The notes under the pieces: generated by a model
Told to the model about the DNA's origin: nothing
Databases searched by the model: none
What the model saw: the letters and a program-made list of their open reading frames with translations, nothing else
Shown: piece after piece, positions 1,737 through 8,713 of the stretch
How the letters are laid out: every line of letters begins with the position of its first letter
Position numbering within the stretch: position 1 is the first letter of the stretch
From: Verrucomicrobiia bacterium
GTDB lineage: Bacteria > Verrucomicrobiota > Verrucomicrobiia > Limisphaerales > JADLHS01
Direction: 5' to 3'
Assembly: GCA_026125285.1 (NCBI GenBank)
Contig: JAHCLO010000001.1
Coordinates: 124,001 to 188,000 of the forward strand
DNA: 64,000 nucleotides
Translations under genes and position numbers: made by a program

Positions 1737-1899
1737 AACAAGTAAAAGTTGATTGTTCTTCCGACGCCATGAGAAATACCGATAGCCACCGCGAAATTCA
1801 ACAGTAAAGCATGGTCGAATCACAATCGGACCTGCCCCCGGGCGGGGATTCGGCTGAGGCAAACCCGGCGAACGGCGGACATGCACCCCCGGCCCGGCT

Positions 1900-2075
1900 T
1901 CAGTCGCTCAGTTTCCAGCGAACACTCCGAGCAAGAAACTCCTTGATCTCGCGATGCCGCGGGTGGGTTGGCACTGGTTGGTGCGCGGGTTCTGATACGA
2001 GTCGTGCTTCTCGCCATGCCGTATGAAAACGCACCTCTTCGCCGTCAATTTCTGGATGAGTTCGACACGCGTCAC
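1900..2075 (-). pseudogene. hicA: HicA-type mRNA interferase toxin, frameshifted
   Basis: The gene starts with GTG at 2075, overlapping the hicB stop by four bases (GTGA). It reads VTRVELIQKL then RHGEKHDSY, including the G-x-H region that holds the catalytic histidine of HicA toxins, and reaches NPRT. Near 1978-1985 the family sequence continues only in another frame (PVPTHPRHREIKEFLARSV), ending in TGA at 1900-1902. One base appears to be missing. The unshifted frame continues in unrelated residues and stops at 1908. HicA is a small double-stranded-RNA-binding-fold RNase that cleaves mRNA; this copy is probably inactive unless the shift is a sequence error or is bypassed. Confidence 0.75.
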
Positions 2076-2263
2076 GCCATCTGGAGTTCTGCCTGCCGCC
2101 GCACGTTGGGAATCGCGCCGCTCGTTAGATCCTTGCAGAGGTCCCGCAAATTGTCCTCCAACTCCGCGAGCGACACGCCCTGCGTCAGGTAATCGGGAAA
2201 TTCTTCCAGATAACCCAGCCATTTCTCGCCGTCTTGCCCATGGACATATCCGATGCTCTTCAT
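2072..2263 (-). CDS. hicB: HicB-family antitoxin
   Basis: A 63-residue protein starting MKSIGYVHGQ. The pattern W-x-G-Y-x-E-x-x-D-x-x-T-Q-G, then a helix with LAELEDNLRDL, matches the partially degraded RNase-H fold of HicB antitoxins, which bind and neutralise HicA. It is at the short end for the family and shows no DNA-binding domain. It precedes hicA with a four-base GTGA overlap, implying translational coupling. The inverted repeat CATGAC (2261-2266)/GTCATG (2275-2280) spans its start codon and might be an operator; that is speculative. The partner toxin is frameshifted, leaving an orphan antitoxin beside an insertion sequence. Confidence 0.78.
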   Translation of the reverse strand: MKSIGYVHGQDGEKWLGYLEEFPDYLTQGVSLAELEDNLRDLCKDLTSGAIPNVRRQAELQMA

Positions 2264-2546
2264 GACCGTAATCTGTCATGCCTCTCGCCAGCGGACGGCG
2301 ATGGGGCGATGACAGAACGCGATGGAACGAAACCCGATGATCTAAACCAACCACCAACCATCTTGCGTAGCACGGCTACGGCCTTTCGAGAAAACCGCGA
2401 ATTTTCAGTTCAGAGGCCAACCGAAGCAACAGGTGGACCCCATTCTTTGGACCACGGAACGCAGAATTTAAGTTAGCTTTCCGGGCTCTGTTGGGACTTG
2501 TTTGGGTTGGTTGTTTTGCTCTGCGTTCACACTGACTACACCCTCC

Positions 2547-2632
2547 GAGGCTGCGGCGTCCAGCCCGGAGTGAACCCCTTCGACCCGTCAGGGTCGAAGG
2601 GGTGAACGGAGGGATGGACGCCGGCGCAGCCT
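2547..2632. repeat. Long hairpin downstream of the IS3 orfB
   Basis: A perfect 12-bp stem, CCCCTTCGACCC (2575-2586) and GGGTCGAAGGGG (2591-2602) with loop GTCA, is nested inside imperfect outer arms. The outer arms are GAGGCTGCGGCGTCCA at 2547 and TGGACGCCGGCGCAGCCTC ending near 2632. It lies just after the orfB stop (2639) and inside the left end of the element. It may terminate transposase transcription or block read-through into the neighbouring genes. Confidence 0.7.
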
Positions 2633-2638
2633 CACCGC

Positions 2639-3520
2639 CTATCGCCACCGCCAGGCCGCGGGCTTGGCCCCATACGACTCGGGCGAATGATACAGCTCGC
2701 TGGGCGTCGCATAACCCAAGGCTTGGTGCGGGCGGAGGGTATTGTAATCGCCAAACCACCGTGCCAATCCCCGGTGCGCCGTCAACCCGTCGGCATAGTC
2801 CTGCAGGTAGATGTCCTCCTGCTTGACGCTGCGCCAGAGCCGCTCGATGAACCGGTTGTCGATCCAGCGTCCGCGACCATCCATGCTGACATCCACCCCA
2901 GCCGCCTCTACGGCCTCCAAGAACGCCTCGCTGGTGAATTGACTCCCTTGGTCGGTGTTGGAGATCAACGGTTGCCTTCCGGTCGCCAACCCGGCGGTCC
3001 ACGCCCGGATGCAGAACTCGCTGTCCAGCGTGTTGGACAGTTCCCACGCCACCACATACCGACTCCACCAGTCCATCAGTGCCACCAGATACAGGAAGCC
3101 ACTGGCCATCGGCACATAGGTGATGTCGCTGCACCACACCTGGTCCGGACCGCTGATTTCCAGCCCCTCCAAGAGGTAAGGGTAGATCCGATGCCCTTCG
3201 CCGGGCTGGCTCAAACAACGCTTCGGATAGATCGCCTCCACCCCCATCAAGCGCAACAGCCGCTGCACCCGCTTGCGGTTTACCCCCAACCCTTCCCGTT
3301 GCAACAGTGCCGTCAGCCGCCGACTCCCATACACCGGGCGTTCCAAGTGCAACTCGTCCAGCCGTCGCATCAGCGCCAGGTTCTCCGCACTCTCCGGCAC
3401 CGGCTCGTAGTAGAAGCCGCTGCGGGAGAGGCCCACCAGCTCGCACTGCCGTCGGATGCTCAGTTCGGGACATGGCGTGATGAATTCCTGCCGGGCCGTT
3501 ACAGACCCAACTGCCTGCAC
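2639..3520 (-). CDS. IS3-family transposase OrfB (DDE catalytic subunit)
   Basis: The 293-residue integrase-like part of the transposase. The DDE triad is visible as WCSDITYVP, SNTDQGSQF and the glutamate of RFIERLWRSVKQED, in the D-D-35-E layout of the IS3 family. An N-terminal HTH_21-like region (RRQCELVGLSRSGFYY) precedes it. The first in-frame start is GTG at 3520, but the family normally makes an OrfAB fusion by -1 frameshifting from orfA, and the slippery run at 3521-3528 supports that. It carries out strand cleavage and transfer at the element ends. The gene looks intact. Confidence 0.93.
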   Translation of the reverse strand: MQAVGSVTARQEFITPCPELSIRRQCELVGLSRSGFYYEPVPESAENLALMRRLDELHLERPVYGSRRLTALLQREGLGVNRKRVQRLLRLMGVEAIYPKRCLSQPGEGHRIYPYLLEGLEISGPDQVWCSDITYVPMASGFLYLVALMDWWSRYVVAWELSNTLDSEFCIRAWTAGLATGRQPLISNTDQGSQFTSEAFLEAVEAAGVDVSMDGRGRWIDNRFIERLWRSVKQEDIYLQDYADGLTAHRGLARWFGDYNTLRPHQALGYATPSELYHSPESYGAKPAAWRWR

Positions 3521-3792
3521 TTTTTTTTAAGCCAATCCACCTCCACGGTCAGTTGGCCGATCTTCTCGTGCAACTGGGCCACCAACTCCTGGCTGTCTTG
3601 ATTGCCTGTTCGTGGGGACTCGAACAGCTCCGGCAAGTGCTCCCGGATCACTCCCTTCCATTGGGTCACTTGCACCGGATGCACCTGGTATTCTCGGGCA
3701 ATCTGCCCGACCGTCTTGACGCCCATCAACGCTTCCAGTCCCACCTTGGCTTTGAAGGCGCCCGTGTATCGTTTCCGTTTGGTCTTGCTCAT
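3499..3792 (-). CDS. IS3-family transposase OrfA (helix-turn-helix subunit)
   Basis: A 97-residue protein starting MSKTKRKRYTGAFKAKVGLEAL. It has the HTH_Tnp_1 fold (VGQIAREYQVHPVQVTQWKG) and a C-terminal leucine-rich coiled segment (LVAQLHEKIGQLTVEVDWLKKK) used for dimerisation. It recognises the element's inverted repeats and, made alone, acts as a regulator. It overlaps orfB by 22 bases, and its last codons contain the A8 slippery run. The reading frame is intact. Confidence 0.92.
   Translation of the reverse strand: MSKTKRKRYTGAFKAKVGLEALMGVKTVGQIAREYQVHPVQVTQWKGVIREHLPELFESPRTGNQDSQELVAQLHEKIGQLTVEVDWLKKKCRQLGL
3520..3530 (-). promoter_or_regulatory. Programmed -1 frameshift site of the IS3 transposase
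   Basis: A run of eight A (T on the plus strand, 3521-3528) followed by G lies at the end of orfA, where the orfB frame is offset by -1. Slipping on AAAAAAG would make the OrfAB fusion that reads LKKK then VQAVGSVTARQ. The family is known to use this A-run signal. A stimulatory structure was not examined. Confidence 0.75.
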
Positions 3793-4098
3793 AGTCCTAC
3801 TGGCTTCTCATGCCCAGCAGAACTCGAAAAGTCTAACTTAGCTCGTGGTCCGAATTTCGGGGTCCACTTCTGCACGCGCCACCCGGCGCGGCTTGGTTGA
3901 ACTCTCTGAACGGGCGCTTCGCGGTGCCCCTCGAAAGGGTGCGATCAAGTTCGCGCCCTTTTATTTTCCGTAGGTCGTTGCTCGCCAGAGAAGGATTTTT
4001 GTAAGGGACCGTCTCCGCTGCCGTTTGTATAGGTCGGGGACTTAACGGCCTCGAAACAAAAAGCCAGAACACGGAAAAACAGAGAACCGCAAACCAGA

Positions 4099-5010
4099 AT
4101 GAAAATCACGAAACTCGGACTCTTGGCGGCCTTATTAACGGCGCTCACCTTCACCGCCAGCGCCCAAAGCTGGCTCACCAACGGCCTTGTCGCCTACTAC
4201 CCGTTCAACGGCGACGCCGACGATGCGAGTGGGAATGGGTACAATGCAAGCGTTCAAGGAACGTACCAGTATCTGTCGGATGGCACCCTGCACCTGATTG
4301 GTGATGGAGCACTTTTTTACAGTGGAGGCGGGTACGTATCGCTGCCCAACTACGGCAACTTGAACTCTGGTTTCACAATATCCATTTGGGTTGGGGGTGA
4401 AACTGACCACGGCAACAGCATCATGGCTGAATATTATGTTTGGTTCGATGATAATGCTGGACGTCACGTGTATATCCAGCAGCACGACTTTGGCGTTGGG
4501 GACCCAACCGCATACGTGAGTTTCCCACTGACAATTGCCGATTATACGCCGTGGAAACACATGGTTTTGGTCTATAGTCCGACTAACAGTGCGGCTTACC
4601 TCAATGGCATAATGACTGGTAGCACAAACAACGTCACTGTTAATCCGTTCCCTACTGTAAATTCCGCTATCGGGCGGCATTGGTGGGCCGGTGGGGCGAA
4701 TTCATCAGTTCGCATGACTATGAATGTTAAGAATTTCCGCGTTTACAACCGCGCCCTCTCTGCTTTCGAAGTTAACGAACTCCATACTATTGAATCCGGT
4801 CCCCGTGTGAACTTGATCAAGGCAGTCAAACCGTCGTTCAGCATTCTTACGCTCACCACGAATTATCAGTTGCAGGTTTCGGGTGACTTGAGCACTTGGA
4901 CCAACCATGGCACACCGTTTGCCGCCACGAACACCAGCATGGCGTATCCGCAGTACTGGAACGTGGACAACTGGGGCAGCCTGTTCTTCCGGCTGCAATC
5001 GGTGCCGTGA
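4099..5010 (+). CDS. Secreted LamG-domain protein with C-terminal YQLQ-type domain
   Basis: A 303-residue protein with a signal peptide (MKITKLGLLAALLTALTFTASAQ, cleavage about residue 22). Next comes a concanavalin A-like LamG domain at about residues 27-230, beginning GLVAYYPFNGDADDASGNGY and ending in the KNFRVYNRALSAFEV motif typical of LamG_3. The last 50 residues (YQLQVSGDLSTWTNHGTPF...NWGSLFFRLQSVP) form a small beta domain that recurs at the ends of two other secreted proteins in this window. It probably binds carbohydrate or sits at the cell surface. Codon use is more AT-rich than in neighbouring genes, which may point to transfer. It stands alone between the insertion sequence and the sigma factor gene. 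Confidence 0.85.
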   Translation: MKITKLGLLAALLTALTFTASAQSWLTNGLVAYYPFNGDADDASGNGYNASVQGTYQYLSDGTLHLIGDGALFYSGGGYVSLPNYGNLNSGFTISIWVGGETDHGNSIMAEYYVWFDDNAGRHVYIQQHDFGVGDPTAYVSFPLTIADYTPWKHMVLVYSPTNSAAYLNGIMTGSTNNVTVNPFPTVNSAIGRHWWAGGANSSVRMTMNVKNFRVYNRALSAFEVNELHTIESGPRVNLIKAVKPSFSILTLTTNYQLQVSGDLSTWTNHGTPFAATNTSMAYPQYWNVDNWGSLFFRLQSVP

Positions 5011-5179
5011 AGCTCATTTGACTGCAAACCAAGTGACGGGATGACGTTCTCCATACCGTCCCGCCCTTGGATGCCGGTTCAGTTGGTTGTCGTGGGTGGA
5101 ATCGTCTGGGTCGGGCGACCTTTGAACCGTGTTGCCCGTTGCCGCCCCCGTGAGCTACTGCCATCATCGACACCGTCGC

Positions 5180-5797
5180 ATGTTCAACGCCCAGACCACC
5201 GACCCGCGCTTGATTGAAGCCGTCAAGGATTGGCGGGACGACGCCAACTTGCGCGAGTTTTACGAACGCTACGCCGTCGCCATCCGGCGGCACGCCTGCG
5301 GCAGCGGCCTTTCCGAGACGGAGGTGGAGGATGTCTTGCAGGAAACGATGGTGAAGGTGGCGCGCTATCTGCCCAACTTCAAATACGACCGCACGGTCTG
5401 CAAGTTCCGCACTTGGCTCAACCAGATCATCAACCAGCGCATCTTCGAGGCGTTGCACCGGCGGCGGCGCGGCAGCTTCTCCGAAGCCGCGTTGGATGAA
5501 ATCCGGGAGTTGGTCCACGCGCCGGAAGCGCCGACCGGCGATCCGGTGGTTCAAGCCGAGATTCAGCATCGGTTGCTGGAGGCGTGTCTGGCCCGGGTGC
5601 GGGCGCGCGTGAAACCGCGGCATTGGCAGGTGTTTGAAGCGCACGCCTTGCACGGCCTGACCGCCGAGGAAACGGCCCGCCGACACGACACCACTGCGGC
5701 CAACGTGTGGGTGATCCGCCACCGCCTGCTCAAAGCCCTGCGCGCGGAGTGGCAGGAGTTGTTGAGCAAACCGTTCCCCGCGGGAGGCGAGACTTGA
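5180..5797 (+). CDS. ECF-type RNA polymerase sigma factor
   Basis: 205 residues from ATG at 5180 (MFNAQTTDPRL); an upstream in-frame start at 5129 is less likely. Sigma region 2 is seen in EVEDVLQETMVKVARYL...FRTWLNQIINQRIFEALHRRRR, and region 4 in HWQVFEAHALHGLTAEETARRH, the helix-turn-helix that reads the -35 box. It directs RNA polymerase to a small regulon. The kinase gene 103 bp downstream is the usual partner of such sigma factors in Verrucomicrobia and Planctomycetes, and a strong palindrome lies between the two. No anti-sigma gene is visible. Confidence 0.88.
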   Translation: MFNAQTTDPRLIEAVKDWRDDANLREFYERYAVAIRRHACGSGLSETEVEDVLQETMVKVARYLPNFKYDRTVCKFRTWLNQIINQRIFEALHRRRRGSFSEAALDEIRELVHAPEAPTGDPVVQAEIQHRLLEACLARVRARVKPRHWQVFEAHALHGLTAEETARRHDTTAANVWVIRHRLLKALRAEWQELLSKPFPAGGET

Positions 5798-5814
5798 ATG
5801 TGGCGGGCAACTCC

Positions 5815-5886
5815 GTAGCGGCGTCTCGGCAGAGCGCCGCAAACTCCGTTCCGGCAAATGGCGGCGCTCTGCCGAGACGCCGCTAC
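5815..5886. repeat. 26-bp perfect inverted repeat between sigma factor and kinase
   Basis: The left arm (5815-5840, beginning GTAGCGGCGTCTCGGC) is the exact reverse complement of the right arm (5861-5886), with a 20-base loop. The RNA would fold into a very stable hairpin. There is no U-tract after it, so it is not a simple intrinsic terminator. It could be a mobile palindromic repeat, or a structure limiting read-through from the sigma gene into the kinase gene. Confidence 0.85.
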
Positions 5887-5900
5887 GCTGGGACACAGTC

Positions 5901-6998
5901 ATGAAAACGGAAGACGCAAGTACAGGCGGCGCGCGGCCCTGGCCTGCAGACTACACAGTCCTGCGCCAACTTTCGGAAGGCGTGGGCGGGATCGTGGCCT
6001 TGGCTCAAAGGACCGATGGGCAGTTGGCCGCGCTGAAGTTGTTGCGCCTGGCGGCGGAAACCTCGCCCGACGAGGCGTTGAAGCGACACGTGCGACTACG
6101 CGAACTGACCCAGCAAGAAGGCTTGCTGCGCATCCGCGCCTGCGGACTGACGCGCGACCGGCTTTGGTTGTGGGAAGAATTGGAACTGGCCGATGATCTC
6201 GAAGGTCGCCCGCCACAGTTCGCGGAGGATTATCAACCGGCGACGATTCGCGCGGAGTTGATCGAACGCGGCCCCTTCACGGCCGAGGCGGTGGCTTCCA
6301 TCGGACTGTCCTTGTGCGACGCTTTGAACACGTTGCACTCCGCCGGGCTGGTGCATCGGGACGTGAAACCCGGCAATCTCTTTCGGGTGCGTGGCAGAGT
6401 GATCCTCGGTGATTACGGCCTGACGGCGCCGCCCGGCGCGCCGTTTGATTTCAAGGGCACGGAGGGATTTGTGCCCAGTGAAGGCACCGCAGATGCAGGG
6501 GCGGATTTATTCGCGCTGGGCAAGACGCTTTACGAACTCTGGACCGGTTGTGATCGGCTGGAGTTTCCCACGCTGCCCAAGCGAATTCTCGACGACCCGG
6601 ACTGGCTGAAGCGGGGCGCGGCGCTCAATGAACTGCTGCTGAAGGTGTGTTCCCCGCGGGCGCACGATCGGTATCACTCGGCCGCCAAACTGGCGACGGG
6701 TTTGCAGGCCGCTGCATCGGGACACTCGCGCCGGATCACGCGTCGGCAATGGCTGGCCGCAGGCGCGGTGACGGGACTGGCTGCCGCGGGGACTGGGCTG
6801 GGAATTCAGATCGCGCGCTGGCCGCCGGTGGCGCGCTGGCGGCAGCACAAGGCCTGGAACTACATCCCGGTGGAATGGGCGGAACAAATGCCGCTCCTCG
6901 ATGAACAGCGGAACTGCCTCTTCCATCTCCAATGCCGGCCGGGTGAAGCGGTATTGGGTCGGCTCGACCTTGAATCGTTTGAGTACCGGAAGCGGTAG
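5901..6998 (+). CDS. Membrane serine/threonine protein kinase-like protein, ends at in-frame TAG
   Basis: 365 residues. The kinase domain covers about residues 18-270: glycine-rich loop LSEGVGGIVAL (24-34), lysine in AALK (K46), catalytic loop HRDVKPGN (152-159) and DYG in place of DFG (171-173). A basic-flanked hydrophobic segment follows (RRITRRQWLAAGAVTGLAA, about 277-304), which is a membrane anchor with a Tat-like twin arginine. The remaining 60 residues already look like the first blade of a beta-propeller. The TAG at 6996-6998 is followed in the same frame by the Kelch-like gene at 7008, so the two probably descend from one 630-codon gene. It is likely the signalling partner of the sigma factor at 5180. 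Confidence 0.82.
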   Translation: MKTEDASTGGARPWPADYTVLRQLSEGVGGIVALAQRTDGQLAALKLLRLAAETSPDEALKRHVRLRELTQQEGLLRIRACGLTRDRLWLWEELELADDLEGRPPQFAEDYQPATIRAELIERGPFTAEAVASIGLSLCDALNTLHSAGLVHRDVKPGNLFRVRGRVILGDYGLTAPPGAPFDFKGTEGFVPSEGTADAGADLFALGKTLYELWTGCDRLEFPTLPKRILDDPDWLKRGAALNELLLKVCSPRAHDRYHSAAKLATGLQAAASGHSRRITRRQWLAAGAVTGLAAAGTGLGIQIARWPPVARWRQHKAWNYIPVEWAEQMPLLDEQRNCLFHLQCRPGEAVLGRLDLESFEYRKR

Positions 6999-7007
6999 AT
7001 TCAGGAA

Positions 7008-7793
7008 GTGACCAAGGAGCCGTTCATGCCGATTTTGCACGCAACGGAACGCACGCTTTGGTTCGCCGAGGCGGGCTTGGGACCGGTTTGGCGATTGGAC
7101 CCGGACACCGGCGAATTCACCCGCCTGCCGGGCGGCGAAGTGGCGGAATCCGATGCGGCGCGGAGTTTCCACAGCCTTGCATATTGGAATCCGGTCACCC
7201 AACGGCTGGGGAGCTTTGGCGGGTACGGCTGGTTTGCGGTGCGGAACTGGCGCTGGGAGTTCGATGCGTCAATCGGAGCGTGGTTGAACGTGGAGAAAGA
7301 CCAGCCGGGGCGCGAACCGCGCTGTCGCTCCGGGGGACGATTCCTGCCGATGGGCGACGGCCAGCGCATTCTGTTGTTCGGCGGGCACGGGAATCTCACA
7401 GGCAAAAAGGATGCGCGCGACCCCGGCGTGCCGCTCTATGACGGACGGTTTCATCGTTTGGGGAATCTCTGGTGTCTGAACCTGGTGACGAACAAGTGGA
7501 GTTGCCTGGTGCCCGTGCCGGGTCTCCAACTGCCGCAATTGTGGTCGGCCTGTTACCTGCCCGCCCTTCAGACTGTGGTGGTCATGCAAGCGCGCGCCAG
7601 CAGCGTCCCGTTCGGCACGCCGGCGGACGTCTTCATTCATCGCCTGGGTAAAGACCGTGGCTTTGTCCGTCTTTCCAGCCGAGGTGATGTGCCTAATGGC
7701 GCCGGCCCCGGATTCGTGACCGCTCTGCCATCCGGCCGGTCGTTGCTGACCTTTCAGAAGGCGGGAGTTTTTGAACTGGTCCTGAATCTTTGA
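7008..7793 (+). CDS. Kelch/galactose oxidase-like beta-propeller protein (same frame as upstream kinase)
   Basis: 261 residues if translation starts at GTG 7008. It contains repeated propeller strands such as LWFAEAGLGPVWRLDPDTGEF, LLFGGHGN and NLWCLNLVTNKWSCL, giving the Kelch-like alternation of G-G and W/Y blade motifs. There is no signal peptide, which makes sense only if it is the extracytoplasmic sensor end of the kinase protein, to which it is joined in frame across the TAG at 6996. It could be a separate cytoplasmic product re-initiated at GTG, or the dead 3' half of a nonsense-mutated gene. Confidence 0.7.
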   Translation: MTKEPFMPILHATERTLWFAEAGLGPVWRLDPDTGEFTRLPGGEVAESDAARSFHSLAYWNPVTQRLGSFGGYGWFAVRNWRWEFDASIGAWLNVEKDQPGREPRCRSGGRFLPMGDGQRILLFGGHGNLTGKKDARDPGVPLYDGRFHRLGNLWCLNLVTNKWSCLVPVPGLQLPQLWSACYLPALQTVVVMQARASSVPFGTPADVFIHRLGKDRGFVRLSSRGDVPNGAGPGFVTALPSGRSLLTFQKAGVFELVLNL

Positions 7794-7891
7794 ATCGGGA
7801 GGATTCCGAGTCGGTTGGAAAGTCGCGCAAACTTGCCAGCCATGAGGCGACCCTCCATCCTCTTCAAGAAAACCAACAGGACATTGTAGCC

Positions 7892-8713
7892 ATGTTCTTC
7901 GACACTCACGCTCACCTGGATTTTCCCGATTTCGCGGCCGACTTGCCACAGGTCATCGCGAGAGCGCAAGCCGCGGGCATCACCAAAATCATTTGCATCG
8001 GTACCGACGTGGACAGCAGCCGGCAGGCGATCCACCTAGCCGAACAGTATCCGTGTGTGTTGGCCGCCGTCGGCTGGCATCCTGGCCACGTGACCGCCGC
8101 GCCGGCAGACGTGCGCCCCGCGTTGCGCGCGCTGGCCCGCCATCCCAAGGTCGTGGCCATCGGCGAAACGGGGCTGGACTACTATCGCCTGCCCAGCACA
8201 CAGAACGCCGGGTCGCCGGCGGACGATGCCAGATATAAGGAACGACAGGCGGCGTTGTTTGAGCAGCACCTAGAAGTGGCAGCCGAGAGCGGCTTGAATT
8301 GTGTGATCCATCAGCGCGGTGATTGTCTCGCCGACACGCTCGCCCTGCTCACACCGTATGCCGACCGGGTGCGCGGTGTGTTTCACTGTTTTGCCGGAGA
8401 CGTGGACAACATGCGTCGCGTTCTGGCGCTGAATTCGATTGTCAGCTTCACCGGGATAGTGACTTTCAAGAATGCACAATCCGTCCGCGACACCGTTGCC
8501 GCCACACCGCTCGGCCAGTTCATGCTGGAAACCGATTCTCCATATCTCGCGCCCGTGCCCCACCGCGGCAAACGTTGCGAGCCGGCATACGTGAAGGAAA
8601 TAGCCGAAGTCGTGGCGAAGGTCAAAGGCTGCACCCGGGAGGAACTTAGTGCAGCGACTTGTGAAACGGCGGGGAATTTCTTCCACGGCTTGGGTGAAGG
8701 CGGGCGACGTTGA
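7892..8713 (+). CDS. tatD: TatD-family metal-dependent deoxyribonuclease/hydrolase
   Basis: 273 residues from ATG 7892 (MFFDTHAHLDF). The metal ligands of the TatD amidohydrolase-like TIM barrel are visible: H6 and H8 in THAH, glutamate in AIGETGLDYY, histidines in CVIHQRG and FHCFAG, and aspartate in LETDSPYLAP. TatD proteins act as magnesium-dependent 3'-5' exonucleases on DNA or RNA in the cytoplasm and take part in DNA fragmentation and repair. The length is normal for the family. An open frame extends to 7790, but only the start at 7892 gives the conserved N-terminus. It follows the kinase/Kelch region on the same strand. Confidence 0.93.
   Translation: MFFDTHAHLDFPDFAADLPQVIARAQAAGITKIICIGTDVDSSRQAIHLAEQYPCVLAAVGWHPGHVTAAPADVRPALRALARHPKVVAIGETGLDYYRLPSTQNAGSPADDARYKERQAALFEQHLEVAAESGLNCVIHQRGDCLADTLALLTPYADRVRGVFHCFAGDVDNMRRVLALNSIVSFTGIVTFKNAQSVRDTVAATPLGQFMLETDSPYLAPVPHRGKRCEPAYVKEIAEVVAKVKGCTREELSAATCETAGNFFHGLGEGGRR

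Follow-up and report, generated by a model that had tools for sequence, protein, structure and literature searches.

A kinase and a propeller in one reading frame

The window analysed here, the whole stretch of 64,000 nucleotides, comes from an uncultured Verrucomicrobia-type bacterium whose draft genome amounts to 7.16 Mb in 79 contigs. On the forward strand, a frame running from ATG 5901 to a TAG at 6996-6998 (5901-6998, 365 aa) encodes a Ser/Thr (Hanks-type) kinase domain, a twin-arginine membrane anchor and blade 1 of a propeller. After the TAG, which stands between blades 1 and 2, the same frame goes on unbroken through IQEV and GTG 7008 to a stop at 7791-7793 (261 aa), and this part (6999-7793, forward strand) encodes Kelch propeller blades 2-6, with GTG 7008 or ATG 7026 as possible starts. 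Frame reading confirmed the first-pass annotation in placing the kinase, the TAG and the propeller in one frame. This sharing of a frame is more than chance, since relatives of the gene are single frames and the alignment crosses the TAG without a gap. No second copy of the propeller was found in the 7.16-Mb draft genome.

Upstream of the TAG, Pkinase (PF00069) is matched with E=1.5e-15 and 57.8 bits against a cut-off of 31.7, the catalytic motifs HRDVKPGN and GDYG (DFG-like) are present, and in the homologue alignment 42 of 43 conserved columns are kept in the kinase and 6 of 6 in the anchor. Downstream of it Kelch_3 (PF13415; E=1.4e-8, 35.1 bits, cut-off 22), Kelch_4 (PF13418; E=6.3e-7, 29.7 bits, cut-off 21.6) and Kelch_1 are matched. 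It had also been claimed that propeller-like sequence begins before the stop, and this was borne out by a 13-row alignment that runs on through VARWR..LDEQRNCLFHLQC..LDLESF, the first of about six propeller repeats. The TAG is thus preceded by one blade and followed by about five, as read from repeats in the alignment and not from structure. AlphaFold models of an intact homologue, L008 (4 rows, mean pLDDT 41), and of its propeller alone (3 rows, mean pLDDT 38) were poor and were set aside.

The anchor (RRITRRQWLAAGAVTGLAAAGTGLG, 6729-6815, forward strand) consists of a twin arginine and a weakly hydrophobic segment in the interior of the protein. The two arginines stand directly before this segment in 20/20 aligned homologues, in the pattern [STN]RR, which is absent at the anchor of all other kinases scored in the host genome; with a hydropathy of 1.40 the segment is also the lowest among them. 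The NCBI Tat model TIGR01409 gives it 13.8 bits, below its cut-off of 16.7, and TatC is encoded in the host genome. Judged by its sequence, the anchor resembles an internal Tat signal, by which the propeller would be exported in folded form; we regard this as a lead. No report of a kinase with an internal Tat signal emerged from a literature search, and kinases are not mentioned in a survey of Sec-Tat membrane proteins.

The partner gene of the kinase, upstream on the same strand (5129-5797), encodes an ECF-type sigma-70 factor (Pfam Sigma70_r2, 1.2e-9; TIGR02937, 9.3e-19), although the start listed for it, GTG 5129, possibly lies too far upstream. Between the sigma and kinase genes lies a palindromic repeat element with two inverted 26-bp arms (5815-5886) that is present in about 50 copies in the genome; the arm is matched 99 times in G000 at no more than 3 mismatches, against 0 matches for the reversed control. 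Beside the pair, also on the forward strand, a secreted LamG protein is encoded (4099-5010; Laminin_G_3, 3.3e-13). It is likely part of the same cassette, and related proteins adjoin the sigma/kinase pair in four other genomes (G005, G014, G017 and G141). A block of about 6 kb (~1809-7894), comprising an IS3-like transposase, the LamG protein, sigma and the kinase-propeller, is missing from a genome of the same genus, G001, where its two flanks stand 112 bp apart, and is therefore accessory DNA.

Fused relatives and the origin of the stop

The search took in 57 relatives and then, with a profile of anchor and propeller, 320 genomes of the order, of which 26 gave matches; in the counting of places only rows covering nearly the whole profile were taken in. 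In the 320-genome search 22 places carry kinase, anchor and propeller in a single open frame, about 615-700 codons long; in two further places (L013 and L014) the junction is open and the kinase damaged. L003, L004 and L005 were each read from end to end; L003 and L004 are close relatives and intact. The relatives therefore uphold the idea of a membrane kinase and its propeller outside as parts of a single protein, while the opposite case, homologues that are always two separate genes, does not hold. The host gene is homologous to this family over kinase, anchor and propeller, and it lacks the single frame through all three because of the TAG.

The likeness extends to the surroundings. Intact homologues (L003/G005, L004/G014, L012/G017 and others) have the same gene order of sigma, kinase, twin-arginine anchor and Kelch propeller; L008, which is the same gene as L003, is 56% identical to the host gene over its full length, and the sigma factor upstream of the intact G005 copy is 84% identical to that of the host. 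The intact copies differ from the host copy in having one open frame and a kinase start that overlaps the sigma stop or comes very close to it. The distance from sigma stop to kinase start is -4 to +16 nt in relatives; 17 of them show an ATGA/GTGA overlap or a gap no wider than 16 nt, and so, by frame reading, does L016. In the host sigma is present as well, but the distance is 103 nt, owing to the repeat element inserted between the two genes. Among 24 loci, a tight sigma-kinase junction is lacking in six, three of which are broken, and present in 18, one of which is broken; a hypergeometric p of about 0.035, calculated by hand, has to be read with the rows not being independent.

Two of the relatives deserve mention for their own arrangement. 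L013 (G281:C47, 682-2532), also of this family, is frameshifted within its kinase domain, and its kinase also begins at an ATGA overlap with sigma. The genome G269 (C255, C264 and C78; L030, L036) holds six kinase-propeller copies, some in tandem, and no sigma match was found upstream of L030 and L036, the two copies examined.

A cut at the junction was found in only two copies in the 320-genome search, the TAG copy described here and L009/G141, a Verrucomicrobia bacterium from a groundwater metagenome whose kinase and propeller are in different frames. A third candidate, G141:C151, was dropped, as it is the same contig as L009, present in two collections. The frameshift lies within about 8 codons of the TAG position, in the same linker between blades 1 and 2, and sigma is likewise separated from the kinase, by a gap of 1.8 kb; the difference is that the frame is shifted there instead of being closed by a stop codon. 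None of the relatives in this search has an in-frame stop at the TAG position, nor a clean two-gene arrangement of kinase and propeller with a start of its own for the latter.

At the stop itself, host LDLESFEYRKR*IQEVTKEPFMPILHATERTLW aligns with L003 IDLESFKVAGLDLDMGKVSGWKAILHPTERTLW and L004 IDLRSWEHSMKHFKLPEVAAFGAILHPTERTLW. The column of the TAG is ungapped, so that one substitution explains the stop, and it holds D in L003 and H in L004. This column and the fused relatives together indicate that the fused form came first and that the TAG arose later, as a nonsense mutation.

Of 28 near-invariant propeller columns the downstream half retains 25 (25 of 27 in a second alignment count); three are lost in the host copy against 0-2 in others. 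Terminal branch lengths for the host are 0.27 in the kinase and 0.42 in the propeller, while those of L003 are 0.18 and 0.24, and a Tajima-style relative-rate test depends on the outgroup, with opposite signs (56 vs 19 changes with L004, 25 vs 31 with L009); the nearest relative is 49% identical in the propeller. The propeller branch is only mildly longer, and the downstream half is not strongly accelerated. Such slight extra change at most means either that the stop is recent or that the downstream half is still used. Since this half has kept the look of a propeller under constraint, we take the event to be recent.

Broken receptor, read-through or two products

The first-pass annotation had left the choice between a recent nonsense mutation, read-through and re-initiation. 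The first is best supported, read-through is without support, and re-initiation is physically possible. We estimate at roughly 0.77 the probability that a recent nonsense mutation broke a fused sensor kinase and left a membrane kinase without its sensor, with control of sigma probably lost. The ancestor would have been a fused protein with a cytoplasmic Hanks-type kinase, one twin-arginine anchor and a Kelch propeller of about six blades outside. By analogy with known pairs, the propeller of the intact system would sense a ligand, the kinase would phosphorylate sigma, and sigma would drive its genes; that sigma is probably phosphorylated by the neighbouring kinase is suggested by the gene pairing. 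A point mutation, whose derived state is read from the homologues, would then have created the TAG between blades 1 and 2, and the product as written would be a membrane kinase bearing blade 1 alone and no working sensor. With the sensor lost, signal-dependent control of sigma is probably lost as well, and the truncated kinase may be either freed from its sensor or inactive. The repeat element separates sigma from the kinase start, and for this reason the whole pair may be decaying.

A single sequence of the locus is available from the host, so a base error or a mixture of strains in the assembly is possible at the TAG, in which case 6996-6998 would be a mistake or a minority variant and the real gene intact. 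The single substitution, the 79-contig draft and the functional look of most of the gene are in accordance with this. Substitution errors are however rare in deep short-read assemblies, and three near-invariant propeller positions are changed too in an operon that is disturbed by the repeat element, which makes this explanation improbable.

Far less probable still is programmed read-through of the stop, by which a kinase-only and a full-length form would both be made. Both halves are in frame and conserved, as it would require, but no relative in the 320-genome search shares the stop, and TAG is an ordinary stop here: of the window's 38 long frames that do not overlap, 9 end in it, and PylS is matched at best with 23 bits against a cut-off of 178, so that no pyrrolysine system was found. 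The ATT CAG that follows the TAG is not known to act as a read-through signal.

The other alternative is a functional fission of the gene, where the TAG ends a short kinase and the propeller is made separately from ATG 7026 or GTG 7008. The best start after the TAG is ATG 7026 and not GTG 7008. It stands 27 nt after the stop with AAGGAG six bases upstream (AAGGAG-CCGTTC-ATG, 7014-7028, forward strand), a possible ribosome binding site and start whose duplex energy of -7.5 kcal/mol is stronger than that of GTG 7008 (-4.8) and of the kinase's own ATG (-3.9). An equally well served ATG stands within 14 codons of 0.6% of in-frame positions, a share that rises to 3.7% when GTG/TTG are allowed. A separate downstream product is therefore possible, and the conservation of the downstream half would agree with its use. 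However, translational coupling all but disappears by a distance of about 20 nt (PMC10666635), and re-initiation at +27 nt, though physically possible, lies beyond the distance of measured coupling. As its sequence stands, a product from ATG 7026 would have neither anchor, blade 1 nor export signal; blades 2-6 would stay in the cytoplasm and probably be unable to close into a propeller. The absence of a clean two-gene arrangement among the relatives also speaks against fission, which we consider unlikely. The break of a second lineage, L009/G141, in the same linker hints that separation there may be tolerated, but for both breaks to fall within about 8 of 630 codons is a coincidence of only about 2-3%. 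It seems slightly more doubtful again that a split in the linker between blades 1 and 2 is generally tolerated, with a kinase and a separately started propeller in at least two lineages; if true, what was a membrane receptor would now consist of two parts, one of them a propeller free in the cytoplasm.

The sigma/kinase family and known systems

For annotation it follows that kinase and propeller are not to be listed as two genes. Beyond this a single broken gene is of little import, though if the kinase has indeed escaped its sensor, nature would here have provided a deletion of the receptor part. The locus also points to a family in this order in which an ECF sigma factor, in most members overlapping the kinase gene or within 16 nt upstream of it, is joined to a kinase with a Kelch propeller sensor, an invariant twin-arginine anchor and secreted neighbours. 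The latter (LamG, Kelch/Ig and similar proteins) are candidates for sigma targets. In G005 the gene directly upstream of sigma (L045, 7739-10084) encodes a secreted protein that combines an Ig-like domain with a propeller related to the sensor of the kinase. We found no description in the literature of a family of ECF sigma factors with twin-arginine-anchored Kelch-propeller kinases in this order.

Pairing of an ECF sigma factor with a Hanks-type kinase is also seen in ECF59, 61, 62, 217 and 283, and the ECF43 pairs include EcfP/PknT of Vibrio parahaemolyticus and EcfK/PknS of Xanthomonas citri (PMC13147305, PMC8999054). As here, in ECF43-type pairs the sigma gene adjoins that of a transmembrane Ser/Thr kinase, whose extracytoplasmic domain can restrain it (PMC13147305, PMC8999054). 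PknS without its periplasmic domain was phosphorylated, and function was not restored (PMC13147305). In ECF43 sigma factors the acidic DAED motif of region 2.2 is lost, with Thr instead (PMC8999054, PMC13147305). Region 2.2 reads EVEDVLQE in the host and DAEDVLQE (DAED in L003) or EAEDVVQE in relatives; the acidic motif is thus kept, and the sigma factor is not of the ECF43 type. The host system further differs from ECF43-type pairs in its Kelch propeller sensor and in a kinase that is cut by a TAG.
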